64,000 nucleotides of DNA, taken from Aureitalea sp. L0-47 (GTDB lineage: Bacteria; Bacteroidota; Bacteroidia; Flavobacteriales; Flavobacteriaceae). Made by a program: the position numbers and the translations under genes. Shown here piece after piece: positions 14,713 through 20,000 of this stretch. The stretch lies in contig NZ_JAFMTQ010000002.1 in assembly GCF_026126405.1 (NCBI RefSeq), positions 62,001 through 126,000 on the forward strand, given 5' to 3'. The notes under the pieces were generated by a model that worked only from the letters and a program-made list of their open reading frames with translations, was not told the origin of the DNA and ran no database searches. Each line of letters opens with the position of its first letter. Within the stretch, counting starts at the first letter, position 1.

Positions 14713-15834
14713 ATGATAAAGTACTTTAATTTTTACACGGGAATTTTGTGTACACTTGTATTTATTTTGAGTTGTGCCGAAAGGCAGCCGAATAGTGCGG
14801 ATCCGTCTATCAGTGATAAAGAATCCGTTCAAATTCAGGAACAAGGCACATTTGCGGTGGGAGGTTCAGTAATTGAAAGCCCCGGTACTTTTGATCCTGT
14901 GGCTCACGGTTATTTTAATCCGACCGATCAAAGTACAGAAGGACAAACCCTGCATGGGGATCATGCTACTGTTGTTTATCAAATTCCTGTTAATCCAAGA
15001 GAACTACCTCTCGTTTTCTGGCACGGCTACGGCCAATCCATGCGAACCTGGCAAACCACACCAGATGGGAGAGAAGGGTTTCAAAGTATCTTTCTGAAGA
15101 AAAAGTTCCCGGTGTATCTGCTGGACCAGCCCAGACGGGGGCTCTCGGGAAGAAGCACTGTTTCAACAACTACAAATGCCAGAACCGAAGATCAACTTTG
15201 GTTTGGAATATTCAGGTTGGGTGAAGGAAACCAGTTCTACCCGGAAGTTCAATTTTCACAGGATCCCGACGCATTGGAACAATTTTTTCGACAAATAACA
15301 CCCGACACCGGTCCCTTGAATATCCAGGTAAATATTGATGCCGTTTCAGCTCTTTTCGATAAAATCGGGGAAGGTGTACTGGTCACTCATTCACACAGCG
15401 GCGGCCAGGGTTGGATGACGGCATTAAAGAACGACAACATCAAGGCTATTGTTTCTTATGAACCAGGGAGCAATTTCGTTTTTCCGGTGGGAAAAGTGCC
15501 ACAACCCATTCCATTTGTGGGTGGGGCTTTGAAAGCTCGAGGGGTACCGATGGAAGAATTTCAGAAATTAACGAAAATCCCTATCGTCATATACTACGGG
15601 GATTATATTCCTGAAGAACCAGTGACAAGTCCTGGCAAAGAGCAATGGCGGGCAGCACTTACCATGGCCGGGCAATGGACCAAAGCCGTTAATGATGCAG
15701 GAGGAGATGTAACTTTGATCGTCCTACCAGAATTAGGGATCAAGGGCAATACGCATTTTCCTATGTCGGACCTAAACAACAAACAGATCGCGGAGTTAAT
15801 GTTTGAATGGCTAAGCGAAAAAGGACTGAACTAA
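14713..15834 (+). CDS. alpha/beta-hydrolase fold lipoprotein
   Basis: The ATG at 14713, 2 bp after the previous stop, is preferred over an in-frame TTG at 14695. The 373-residue protein has a lipoprotein signal ending in FILSC21. The hydrolase domain shows LPLVFWHGYGQS (oxyanion region), VYLLDQPRRGLSGRS, and the nucleophile elbow THSHSGGQG with S229; a likely acid lies near VTLIVLPE and the His in GNTHFPM. It should cleave an ester, lactone or similar bond on the cell surface or in the periplasm. The operon partners (DUF5916 protein, cupin) and AraC control suggest uptake and breakdown of a specific compound. Confidence 0.85.
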   Translation: MIKYFNFYTGILCTLVFILSCAERQPNSADPSISDKESVQIQEQGTFAVGGSVIESPGTFDPVAHGYFNPTDQSTEGQTLHGDHATVVYQIPVNPRELPLVFWHGYGQSMRTWQTTPDGREGFQSIFLKKKFPVYLLDQPRRGLSGRSTVSTTTNARTEDQLWFGIFRLGEGNQFYPEVQFSQDPDALEQFFRQITPDTGPLNIQVNIDAVSALFDKIGEGVLVTHSHSGGQGWMTALKNDNIKAIVSYEPGSNFVFPVGKVPQPIPFVGGALKARGVPMEEFQKLTKIPIVIYYGDYIPEEPVTSPGKEQWRAALTMAGQWTKAVNDAGGDVTLIVLPELGIKGNTHFPMSDLNNKQIAELMFEWLSEKGLN

Positions 15835-15847
15835 AAACTTAAAACAC

Positions 15848-16321
15848 ATGAAAATTCTACTTACCACTTTATTGATAGTTGTATCTGTTTTTGCGAATGC
15901 ACAAAGTTCTGAATACACTGTCTCCTCATATTTGGAGGAAGGAATTAAAGCGCCAAACACCCACTACATTGGGGAAGCGTGGTTAAATCGGTTATTATCC
16001 GCCGATGGTGACCTGGATTACAATATCACAAAAGCGACCTTCAAGGCGAATTCAACCTTAGACTGGCATAAGCACACATCGCCACAGGTATTGATCTATG
16101 TTGAAGGAGAGGGCTATTATCAGGAAAGAGGAAAAGACCCTGTAATTTTAAAAGCAGGAGATGTGATCATGTGTGAAAAAGACACTGAGCATTGGCACTC
16201 ATCCACTAAAGAAAGTGATGTGACATATCTGGCCATTTATGGTGGAGAACAACCAACGGTTTGGACAGAAGTACTTTCTCAAGAATATTATGATAGTGTG
16301 GCTGAGAGGTTGAAAGAATAG
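15848..16321 (+). CDS. secreted cupin-domain protein
   Basis: 157 residues with a Sec signal peptide (residues 1-19, ending FANAQ) and a single cupin barrel. Motif 1 is LDWHKHTSPQVLIYVEGEG, with H-x-H and a glycine-rich turn; motif 2 is AGDVIMCEKDTEHWH, giving a likely metal site. It resembles the small bacterial Mn cupins that include hydroxynitrile lyase-like enzymes and the cupin part of carboxymuconolactone-decarboxylase-type proteins. Last gene of the AraC-linked operon, 13 bp after the hydrolase. The reaction is not known. Confidence 0.85.
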   Translation: MKILLTTLLIVVSVFANAQSSEYTVSSYLEEGIKAPNTHYIGEAWLNRLLSADGDLDYNITKATFKANSTLDWHKHTSPQVLIYVEGEGYYQERGKDPVILKAGDVIMCEKDTEHWHSSTKESDVTYLAIYGGEQPTVWTEVLSQEYYDSVAERLKE

Positions 16322-16736
16322 AGATGTATCGAAAAAGTGGTGAAGGCAAATTATGATGGAGTGGGTACTATTCCGCGACTCACTTTTGAACAAAACAAAA
16401 AGCCCGGAACAATGGTTCCGACAAACACATTGGGAAACGGAAAGTTCCGTCATTTTTGTAAACTGGAAACTACAAAAATGACGGAACAACCACCCACAAT
16501 AGTGTGCCAAATGAGTCATAAGTGAAAGGTAAATCTTGATTTGGGAGAATTCTATCTAATAACTATTCACGTCTCACTATTCACCCAAAAGAAAAAGCCT
16601 GAAGCGAAAGGATCATTCTTAAATGGGGAGCGCAAAGTTTTCTTTGTTTTGTACATTGATTTAAGTTACAAAACAAAGAAAACAACCACCCACATTCACG
16701 TGGGCCAATAAAGAATAAGAATAATTAATAGAAAAT
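16322..16736. repeat. two ~145-bp structured repeat units with long perfect hairpins
   Basis: No credible gene. Unit 1 spans about 16368-16510 and unit 2 about 16562-16708, in the same orientation. Both open with ACTATTC, then CTCACT and AAAAAGCC, reach AAAG, form a hairpin, and continue AACCACCCACA to a GCCAA end. The stems are 17 bp and perfect in each: 16444-16460 with 16471-16487, and 16637-16653 with 16667-16683. The stem sequences differ completely between units, while the flanks are conserved. Unit 2 ends in GTGGGCCAA, which resembles the start of the neighbouring tRNA-Gln on the other strand. Confidence 0.7.
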
Positions 16737-16766
16737 AAAAAGCCGCTTCATTCGAAGCGGCTTTTT
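16737..16766 (-). terminator. terminator of tRNA-Gln
   Basis: Perfect 13-bp stem AAAAAGCCGCTTC / GAAGCGGCTTTTT with a 4-base loop, directly after the tRNA 3' end on the minus strand. Confidence 0.85.
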
Positions 16767-16767
16767 G

Positions 16768-16840
16768 TTGGCCCACTAGGGCTCGAACCTAGACTCTTCT
16801 GGACCAAAACCAGACGTGTTGCCAGTTACACCATGGGCCA
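16768..16840 (-). tRNA. tRNA-Gln (anticodon TTG)
   Basis: On the minus strand the 73-nt gene folds as a tRNA: acceptor arms TGGCCCA / TGGGCCA with discriminator A; anticodon stem TCTGG / CCAGA around loop TTTTGGT, so the anticodon is TTG (reads CAA, Gln); T-arm TAGGTTCGAGCCCTA. The CCA end is not encoded. It stands alone and is followed by a strong terminator and then by the two structured repeat units. Confidence 0.95.
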
Positions 16841-17090
16841 ATACCATAATGAGTGCGCAAATTTAATACAAACTTTGGTTCACACAAACAATTTTCAGCA
16901 AAAATCAGACAGACATTACGGTCTAAGACCGTTCTAAACCCCCGATTTACATTAAAGCTAAAGTTCTAGTACCATTTTCCACCCCACTTTTTGCGAAATA
17001 ATAACCCCAAAACCCACGTTAGCATATTTTTAGGAGTCCCTTTAGGCATATTATTAGTAAATTCGCCTCGACCAATAACCCAGTTTTTTT

Positions 17091-20000
17091 ATGTCCGATT
17101 TCAACTTTGTAAAATGGAACAGAATCCTAGGATGGAGCGTATTCGGAATCGCCCTCCTCACCTACTGGCTCACCGTAGAACCCACCGCCAGTTTCTGGGA
17201 TGCCGGTGAATATATCACCACGGCAAGTAATCTCGAAGTTGGACACCCTCCCGGAGCACCGCTCTACCAGATCATGGGTGCCTTTTTTTCCATCTTTGCC
17301 ATGGAGGCTACAAGCATCGCACTCACCATCAACCTGATGTCGGTCTTTGCGAGCGCGTTTACCATACTTTTTATGTTTTGGTCTCTCAGCTTACTACTCC
17401 AGAAAGTAGTATCCAAACACGAAGAAATTAGCAAAACCAGTGCAATGGCGATCCTGGGAAGCGCAGCCGTAGGTTCACTTGCCTTTGCGTTTACAGATAG
17501 TTTTTGGTTCAATGCCGTGGAGGCAGAAGTATACGCCTCTGCAGCCTGTTTCGTGGCACTAATGTTCTACGCCGGACTGCGCTGGGAGCGGGAAATGAAT
17601 ACCCCCAGGGGTGACCGTTGGGTGATCCTCATATCCTTTATTATCGGACTCTCTTTTGGAGTTCACTTCATGGGACTGCTAACGATCCCCGCTATTGGAT
17701 TCCTCTACTATTTCAAAAACACAAAAGAAGTCACCTATAAGAATTTCATCATCGCTAATGTGGTTGTGGTAGCCATACTGCTATTTATCTTCAAGCTGCT
17801 ACTTCCAATGACCATGAAGTTCTTTAGTGCTTCGGAATTATTCTTCGTGAACGATATAGGTTTACCGTTCAATTCAGGAACCATCATTGCCGGATTATTG
17901 TTTATCGCTTTGTTCTATTACGGACTCCGATACACTCGCAAAAAAGGTTATGCCAGGGTGAATACGCTCATCCTCTGCGTGCTGTTCATATTCGTTGGTT
18001 TCTCCAGCTGGTTAATGCTTCCAATTCGCGCGAATGCCGGGGTAGTGATCAACGAAAACAACCCGAACAACGCCCGCGAACTCCTGGCCTATTACAACCG
18101 GGAGCAATATCCTGAAACCCATTTATTCTACGGACCCCAATTCACGGAAACATACGCAGGACTGGATCCGGACAATCCCTATAAAGACGATAAGCCCAAG
18201 TACGAGAAAGATGAAAAAGCGGGGAAATACATCATCGTAAATAACTACAAGAATGCTAGTCAGAATACGGATGATGCCCACAAAGCCATCCTTCCTCGTA
18301 TGTGGAGCATAGAACATAAGGAAGCTTACTTGAGTTACCTCGACGGTGTAGATTTCACTATAAAACGACCCTACAGAAGCGAATCCCGACTCGTGGAGGA
18401 AGTGAATAAATTTAAACAGGCTTATGCGGAAGGCCTGGTAGATGTGGAAGATTATAATACCTTCCTAACAAACTTCAGTCCTTACCTGGATATTGAAAAA
18501 CCCTCATTCATAGACAACATGAAGTTCATGTTCTCCTACCAGTTCGGCTATATGTACTGGAGGTATTTTGCATGGAATTTCGTGGGACGGCAGAACGATG
18601 TACAGGGCAATGACGATTACCTGAACGGAAACTGGATAAGCGGTATCAAATTCATAGATGAGATGTTCCTCGGAAGCCAGGACAATCTCACTTCAGATAT
18701 GAAAAATAACAAGGCGCGAAACACTTATTATATGTTGCCCTTGTTACTGGGAATTATTGGCCTCCTGTTCCATTTCTTCAACGACCGTCGAACATTCTGG
18801 GTGCTCCTGGTGCTATTCCTCTTTACTGGTCTCGCTCTGAAAGTGTACCTCAACGAACGGCCATTCGAACCACGGGAGAGAGACTATGCCCTTGTGGGAT
18901 CTTTTTACGTATTTGCCATGTGGATAGGCTTTGGCGTGTACGCCTTGTTCGAAATTGCCAAACAATATCTGAAACCCAAAATGGCACTACCGATCGTTCT
19001 GGGAATCACTCTGATCGCTGGGCCGGTACTTCTGGCCACGGAGAACTGGGACGATCACGACAGGTCGAATCGATACACAGCTCAATCCATGGGTAAAATG
19101 TACCTGGATTCCTGTGATGAAAACGCCATCCTATTTACCATTGGAGACAACGACACCTTTGCTCTTTGGTACCAGCAAAATATCGAAGGACATCGACAGG
19201 ATGTTAGGATTGTTAACACTAGCCTTTTCCAAACAGATTGGTATATAGACGACATGAAGAAGAAAGCATGGACAAGCGATCCCATACCTTCTCAATTAAC
19301 CCACAACGACTATAAATACGGATCGAGGGATTTCCTTTTCTACCAGGAAACTCCTCAGGACACCCTGGATATAAAGAAATGGATGAACTGGGTGGCTAAC
19401 GACAGCCAGGCAACGACCATAGCCCTGGAAAGCGGCCAGATCGCCAACTCCTTCCCATCGAAAGTAATTCGGGTTCCTGTGGACAAAGAGACCGTGTTGA
19501 GAAATGGAATCGTTCCTGAAAAGGATGCCGATCTTATTGTGCCCTACATCGACATCGTTCTGAAAGGAGATATACTATACAAGAACCGAATGATGATGCT
19601 CGATATCATTGCCAATAATAACTGGGAACGCCCAATTTACTTCAGTGGCGGAAGCTTTGGTGATGACGATTATCTGTGGATGAAAGATTATCTGCAACTG
19701 GACGGATTAGTCTACAAACTGGTACCTGTGAGAACTCCTGTTGATAAACGCAACCCCTTCGATATGGGTAGGATCGACAGTGATAAGATGTACGATATCG
19801 TGATGCAGTGGGACTGGGGGAATAGTGGCAGCCCTGATATCTACCACGATACGGAGACACGCAGAAATGGTATTTCTTACCGAAGTAATCTCGCCCGCCT
19901 TGCCGAGACTCTCATCAACGAAGGAAAGAAGGAAAAAGCTGAGAACATCCTGGACCTTGCTATGGAGAAAATGCCGGTACAGTACTTCGAATATTACTCC

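Follow-up and report, generated by a model that had tools for sequence, protein, structure and literature searches.

Paired hairpins behind a tRNA-Gln gene of Aureitalea sp. L0-47 are probably copies of a short palindromic element that inserts at gene ends

What are the two hairpins that lie behind the tRNA-Gln gene of Aureitalea sp. L0-47? A preliminary description of this DNA pointed out two perfect 17-bp inverted repeats adjoining tRNA-Gln, and the coordinates bear this out, placing the stems at 16444-16460/16471-16487 and 16637-16653/16667-16683 of the window (the whole 64,000-nucleotide stretch that was analysed). Both are followed by AACAACCACCCACA, and among perfect inverted repeats with loops of 3-20 these two rank first in the window by length; the maximum arm in 20 dinucleotide shuffles was 13. 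From sequence comparison, we propose that the two units are probably copies of a short (~90 nt), non-coding palindromic mobile element that inserts at gene ends and spares the gene; that they are a mobile DNA element of some kind appears highly probable. The usual layout of such units, read on the gene strand, is P-[S]-P′-GGTGG-TT-[hairpin B, typically 17 bp]-TTTCCGTT-[S copy]; here S denotes the 3′ end of the gene with its stop codon, P is the gene sequence immediately before S, and P′ tends to reverse-complement P around a G-rich core. The corresponding parts of the window are as follows.

16421-16515, minus strand: conserved core of unit 1, distal to the tRNA (R1 and R2 model matches, E 8.8e-22 and 6.8e-16)
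16444-16487, no strand assigned: hairpin B of unit 1, perfect 17-bp stem with a 10-nt loop
16490-16494, minus strand: GGTGG tag of unit 1 (CCACC on the plus strand), two bases off the stem
16436-16443, minus strand: TTTCCGTT flank of unit 1 (AACGGAAA on the plus strand), conserved in the alignment
16502-16510, minus strand: putative arm P′ of unit 1, decayed (GTGTGCCAA on the plus strand), assigned from unit 2 and relatives
16389-16420, no strand assigned: terminator-like relic behind unit 1 (AACAAAACAAAAAGCCCGGAACAATGGTTCCG), of the AAAAAGCC repeat family D1
16614-16713, minus strand: conserved core of unit 2, next to the tRNA (R1 and R2 matches, E 2.6e-19 and 4.1e-16)
16637-16683, no strand assigned: hairpin B of unit 2, perfect 17-bp stem with a 13-nt loop
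16686-16690, minus strand: GGTGG tag of unit 2
16629-16636, minus strand: TTTGCGCT flank of unit 2 (AGCGCAAA on the plus strand)
16700-16708, minus strand: arm P′ of unit 2 (TTGGCCCAC on the tRNA strand), complementing the tRNA-Gln 3′ end GTGGGCCAA (92% over 13 nt)
16587-16606, no strand assigned: terminator-like relic behind unit 2, repeat family D1, matching the tRNA terminator over 13 nt (GGCTTTTTATTTT, score 22)
16734-16769, minus strand: tRNA-Gln terminator, an inverted repeat
16767-16840, minus strand: tRNA-Gln(TTG), the gene followed by the units (Rfam tRNA, 62.2 bits)

Comparison with relatives alters the outline of the units. The stems, at first regarded as unrelated in sequence, are identical at 11 of 17 positions, and once relatives are added they follow a rule of a constant foot (GTT), seven variable bases and a constant apex (TTTTGTA). 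The motif of Flavobacterium-type promoters is TAnnTTTG; TTTTGTA was considered as such a promoter and dropped, since there is no fixed TAnnTTTG. The distances from ACTATTC, the unit start as first drawn, to the stem, given earlier as 76 and 75 bp, are 77 and 75 bp. ACTATTC, which starts in the window at 16367 and 16562 and again at 16576, had been taken as a component of the unit; by eye it is absent from units at other loci, and stretches like 16550-16586 match other places independently. We now also place AAAAAGCC outside the element, as a terminator relic, because the tRNA-Gln terminator contains it too. The left flank as first drawn is a terminator relic and an ACTATTC-rich spacer that are not common to units elsewhere, and the parts of the window common to relatives are about 16421-16515 and 16614-16713. 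By eye, the relic of unit 1 resembles the tRNA-Gln terminator of a relative (L013); only 13 nt of it align to the window's own terminator. As had been noted, GTGGGCCAATA at the end of unit 2 resembles the start of tRNA-Gln, but in the light of other loci we read it as the reverse complement of the gene 3′ end; both readings fit at tRNA-Gln because the two ends of the tRNA pair in the acceptor stem. In the predicted fold, P′ of unit 2 also pairs with GTGGG at 16689-16693 on the tRNA strand, forming hairpin A.

The suggestion that structure is constrained while the stem sequence is free is supported by compensatory changes in 24 sequences. Across the 17 stem pairs, 92.1% of 406 cells are paired, as against at most 52.1% after a one-column slide, although the sequences were picked with stem-holding models, which biases the paired share upward, and the double changes at the free pairs weigh more. 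Changes on both sides occur at 13 of the 17 pairs and fill 80 cells; shuffling gave 22.5 on average and reached 80 in 0 of 500 runs. CCAC, the opposite strand of the tag, is invariant in 24/24 aligned units. The stem is perfect over 17 bp in both window units and has one or two mismatches in many units elsewhere, the loops of 63 non-redundant hairpins measure 6-17 nt, and the units fold strongly (z about −4.5 to −6.5). The finder behind these hairpins, and behind the counts of arrays, gene positions, duplicates and complementarity given below, accepts only copies with GGNGG, a CGT-like tail and no more than two mismatches, and consequently misses decayed ones. At L161, L163, L166, L207 and other loci of genus g225 the loop often reads ...TGCGAAGC or ...TGCGTAGC and is partly conserved.

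A covariance-model search had been suggested at the outset, along with the caveat that the reading would fall if further copies or compensatory stem changes were lacking; both were looked for and both were found, the copies lying in other genomes of the family. Model R1 was built from 5 sequences and model R2 from 24, and strict filters were applied in the family and class searches alike. Among 397 genomes of the family, R1 had matches in 18 at E≤0.01 and in 14, spanning 12 genera, at E≤2e-5; R2 matched 26 of the 397 at E≤0.02, several of them weakly or across the stem alone. In a class sample of 295 genomes, which includes matchless family members, the strict filters left the Aureitalea sp. 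L0-47 genome as the sole match. Two exact patterns of the unit gave 0 matches each in viral contigs, and the plasmids searched gave no match; two records of one Vibrio phage matched over 54 bp at E 0.01, which we take as chance. As found so far, the element appears confined to one bacterial family. The open-licence literature yielded no description of it, which argues weakly for novelty.

Within its own genome, a strict pattern finds exactly the two window units (reversed control, 0), and weaker matches (C33 at E 0.0013 and 0.0056; C65 and C33 at E>0.3), one of them inside an ORF, are taken as chance. Beside tRNA-Gln in the seven genomes of the genus there is one unit in G003 (L007), two in G001 (L009), broken pieces in G005 (L008) and a diverged hairpin in G002 (L013), and no such unit was seen at the tRNA-Gln of G004 and G006. 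Two further loci, L026 and L027, have matches equal to those of L009 and L007 and were omitted from the counts of arrays, gene positions and duplicates. Weak R1/R2 matches in the genus (L113, L067, L059, L129) look coding by eye and are likewise ascribed to chance. Upstream of the intact tRNA-Gln, L007 (~1290-1420) and L008 (~1930-2065) contain a decayed second tRNA-Gln with inserted short palindromes. Among the 18 genomes of genus g225, eight have matches at E≤0.01 (57, 37, 24, 14, 11, 8, 5 and 4) and ten have none, five of the latter being single-contig and 99% complete. These are model matches, and because a few places are counted once per strand, the true number of units is slightly smaller. 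The g225 genomes richest in matches (G725, G712, G723, G722) are also the largest, at 4.8-5.5 Mb compared with 2.6-4.3 Mb for the other 14.

The position of the units behind gene ends was absent from the preliminary description. A same-strand ORF of at least 100 codons has its stop within 300 nt before the array in 41 of 49 cases (median 32), compared with 13 of 49 in the mirror case, and one unit lies inside an ORF. Among the eight arrays lacking such an ORF, those of L007, L009, L084 and L085 follow tRNA-Gln, that of L079 follows tRNA-Leu, that of L194 lies 365 nt behind an ORF, and the two of L078 follow a stretch that matched no Rfam family. A stretch at L122 that resembles the end of a 5S rRNA gene received no confirmation from Rfam. 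GGTGGTT, TTTCCGTT and the foot and apex of the hairpin recur behind unrelated genes and across genera. Furthermore, equivalent gene types, named here from our reading of the sequence, are struck at one point in different genera: response regulators (L082, L180), HLDHHL proteins (L080, L116, L161) and glycine-rich GGASGGW proteins (L083, L115, L170, L206).

A direct copy of the gene 3′ end follows the array in 37 of 49 cases, as against 52 of 2352 in a control that includes orthologous gene pairs. It usually starts 11-28 nt past the stem, is about 30-160 bp long and is 73-100% identical, in a survey that omits the window or contig-end loci L026, L027, L171 and L201-L204. In the other 12 cases (L007, L009, L030, L078, L084, L085, L162, L169, L172, L195, L199, L206) the duplicate is absent or scores under the threshold; these include all the tRNA-Gln arrays that were tested, five in number (L007, L009, L030, L084, L085). 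In the window, only the 13-nt terminator repeat was found, its score of 22 lying below the duplicate threshold of 44, while the stretches behind units 1 and 2 resemble each other with a score of 43. The duplicate belongs to the element family, and it is not demonstrable at the window's tRNA-Gln; for this reason we slightly lowered our confidence that it is produced by the insertion process, which we still consider likely. Sites with and without the element can be compared at two paralogous genes. Neither unit nor duplicate is present in G711, G726, G727 and G234 (both genes), nor at the sole paralogue found in G713, G714 and G716, whereas both paralogues are occupied in G725, G712 and G723 (one in G712 is broken) and the sole one found in G719.

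These data bear on the proposal that the units are folded regulatory RNAs in 3′ untranslated regions, which would account for their same-strand position behind genes, the compensatory stem changes and the strong folding. However, the 39 mismatches among 1033 pairs of the 63 hairpins (11 G-T, 6 A-C and 22 others, with a finder that tolerates two) show no clear wobble excess, Rfam found only the tRNA at gathering level in the window (15800-17200) and six loci, and neither 0-57 copies within one genus nor duplication of gene ends is expected of such an RNA. Of the readings first offered, a mobile element or recombination substrate is favoured by the copy numbers in g225, the empty sites and the 37 duplicates, and we regard a folded RNA as very improbable.

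The mobile-element reading gains a further component from the arm P′. By eye, most P sequences contain a core rich in G (TGGGG, GGTG), roughly 10-18 nt upstream of the duplicate. At 27 loci picked by script (alignment score of at least 44, duplicate 8-40 nt from the stem), the P′ region is complementary to P with a score of 5.85 versus 4.25 (0 of 1000 permutations). With L082, L114, L116 and L080 added by hand, at least two of them chosen after the complementarity had been seen, the 31 loci give 6.77 versus 5.04 (0 of 5000 permutations); several of these loci are one gene across sister genomes. Clear complementarity (score of at least 8) is found at only 8 of the 31 loci, compared with 1.7% of controls, and similarity in direct orientation is also somewhat raised (5.94), with windows that extend six bases into S. 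In the 27-locus test, the direct comparison of P with X did not pass, stretch n resembled neither P, loop nor stem, and a signal of similarity between S and X was ascribed to a short S extending into X. At L205, the complementarity of P and P′ spans 19 bases with a single mismatch and stops at the edge of the duplicate.

Arrays add information on how copies accumulate. Over the seven free stem bases, at least six agree in 15 of 23 adjacent unit pairs, at most three in 7, and four in 1. We read the near-identical pairs as probable array growth and the differing pairs as probable separate insertions. In the window's pair 1 of 7 free bases agrees and 6 differ, and the two copies would most simply be two separate insertions behind tRNA-Gln. 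Two other repeats were noted: about nine head-to-tail copies of a ~44-bp repeat (AACTTTCCGTCCCCCATTTTTCCAACTGTGGTGGTTGGGTTTCAG) at L084:4640-5050, continuing from the right flank of a tRNA-Gln unit, and an array of the seven-base unit CCGATAA at L081:4635-4760, past the second gene-end copy. Replication slippage at hairpins together with local tandem duplication, which calls for no dedicated enzyme, would produce the agreement within those 15 of 23 pairs; it also fits the resemblance of P′ to a fold-back copy of P and the breaks seen by eye inside hairpins of L008. Slippage is nevertheless hard to reconcile with motifs (GGTGGTT, TTTCCGTT, foot and apex) that are conserved behind unrelated genes of different genera, and with the 10 of 18 g225 genomes that have no units, and we consider it very improbable.

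If the units are mobile, the closest published relatives to consider are REP sequences. The units could be REP-type repeats moved by a REP-associated Y1 (HUH) transposase of an atypical Bacteroidetes kind that has been lost from some genomes. According to PMC6006769, REPs have GTAG or GTGG 0-2 nt 5′ of the structure, a fully paired basal stem of 7-20 nt, either a loop of 2-5 nt or a bulge bearing a second stem, either three or more G/C among stem bases 1-4 or a stem G+C of at least 50%, and a copy near tnpA-REP; a Bacteroidetes subclass is described there whose flanking structures are atypical and occur repeatedly in the genome. The element agrees with two of these five rules and departs from three. 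GGTGG-TT-stem occurs in both window units, so that GTGG stands two bases from a perfect 17-bp basal stem, an agreement that is not independent among the units collected, as the finder requires GGNGG. In contrast, 0/63 hairpins have a loop of 5 nt or less, 1/63 has three G/C among stem bases 1-4 and 0/63 have a stem that is at least half G+C. Nor does the enzyme accompany the copies: PF01797 (Y1_Tnp) is found in 4/18 g225 genomes, with none in G725 and G712 and five in G724, which has no units, and no perfect tagged hairpin lies near the Y1 genes of L221, L222, L223 and L225. By eye, G234 encodes a RAYT-like protein, and the Y1 protein of G723 resembles IS200 TnpA. As short extragenic palindromes with GTGG two bases 5′ of the stem, variable copy numbers and clusters, the units resemble the GTAG/GTGG REPs of PMC6006769 and PMC3733652, but they differ in their 6-17 nt loop, AT-rich stem with a free middle, duplicated gene end and target-complementary arm, and in the Y1 protein undetected in G725 and G712. 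Together, these observations make an origin as REPs of this kind unlikely.

A second group of REPs, tagged CGTC, is palindromic, also occurs in Bacteroidetes and is said to have no dedicated transposase (PMC3733652). The present units share the palindromic form and the occurrence in Bacteroidetes; they have another tag and tail, and gene-end duplication is not mentioned in the available part of that source. CGTC does stand beside a second palindrome family encountered in this work, with a constant apex, TCCRCTGGA, and a free outer stem. Its loci are L255 near 2571 (G004), L008 near 1454 (reverse), L037 near 1363 (reverse), L034, L049, L102 and L125; in both L255 and L008, CGTC precedes the palindrome. 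The family member at the tRNA-Gln of G004 contains GGGCTCGAACC, which reverse-complements the T-arm of the tRNA (GGTTCGAGCCC), and a copy of the tRNA 3′ end, CTAGTGGGCCAAC, follows it.

Other known systems match in part. IS200/IS605 elements have single-stranded hairpin ends, a fixed four-base guide and a transposase gene, and make no target duplication; the units are like their ends in the hairpin and in a short target-recognising guide, putative here, and unlike them in that the arm is longer and specific to the locus, and the duplicate is long. MITEs are short, non-coding and dispersed, as are the units, and have terminal inverted repeats and a short target duplication of fixed length, whereas the outer ends GGTGGTT and TTTCCGTT are not mutual inverted repeats and the duplicates vary between ~30 and 160 bp. 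In integron attC sites and islands, structure is conserved over sequence and the gene end is restored, and the outer boxes of attC read RYYYAAC ... GTTRRRY. A site of a tyrosine recombinase, like attC or the islands that restore a gene 3′ end, would explain the same two properties here, where inserted DNA restores the gene end, as well as the arrays. However, the outer motif of the units has the order GTT ... AAC on both strands, the reverse of attC, the units are only ~90 nt, no integrase was noticed with them, and at loci with a close duplicate no cargo gene lies between unit and duplicate; we find this origin quite unlikely. Finally, the long, variable duplicates and a primer-like complement might recall the relic of a retroelement inserted by target-primed reverse transcription, yet RVT_1 was detected in 7/21 genomes tested and in none of G725, G712, G000, G001 and G003, and this is extremely improbable. 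Neither Y1_Tnp (4/18 genomes) nor RVT_1 follows copy number, and both were undetected in G725 and G712, the two genomes richest in matches.

For a mobile element inserting at gene ends, we infer the following movement. A trans-acting enzyme would recognise folded single-stranded DNA, P′ would pair with the P of the target as a guide, and the element would be joined behind P along with a copy of S. The gene stays intact because the first S is complete, and the site is reusable because P-S survives, which would explain the arrays. A single-stranded DNA hairpin as the substrate is the version we mildly favour, and that P′ is a guide, not a by-product, we hold tentatively, at just under even weight. 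The units may even represent a new class, a gene-less element of ~90 nt with a hairpin recognised by shape more than sequence, a target-complementary arm renewed at each target and a copied gene end, which is possible though rather doubtful.

If that proposal is true, the renewed arm would be a self-programming guide, and the second palindrome family would show the same logic at the same tRNA-Gln in a sister genome. The movement of most short palindromic repeats is poorly known; here the tag, free stem, complementary arm, duplicate and empty sites can be read by comparison, which makes a mechanism testable. An arm that acts as a guide and is renewed with each insertion would constitute a programmable insertion system of natural origin that leaves the entered gene intact, and would explain the remodelling of the stretches behind genes and tRNAs in these bacteria.
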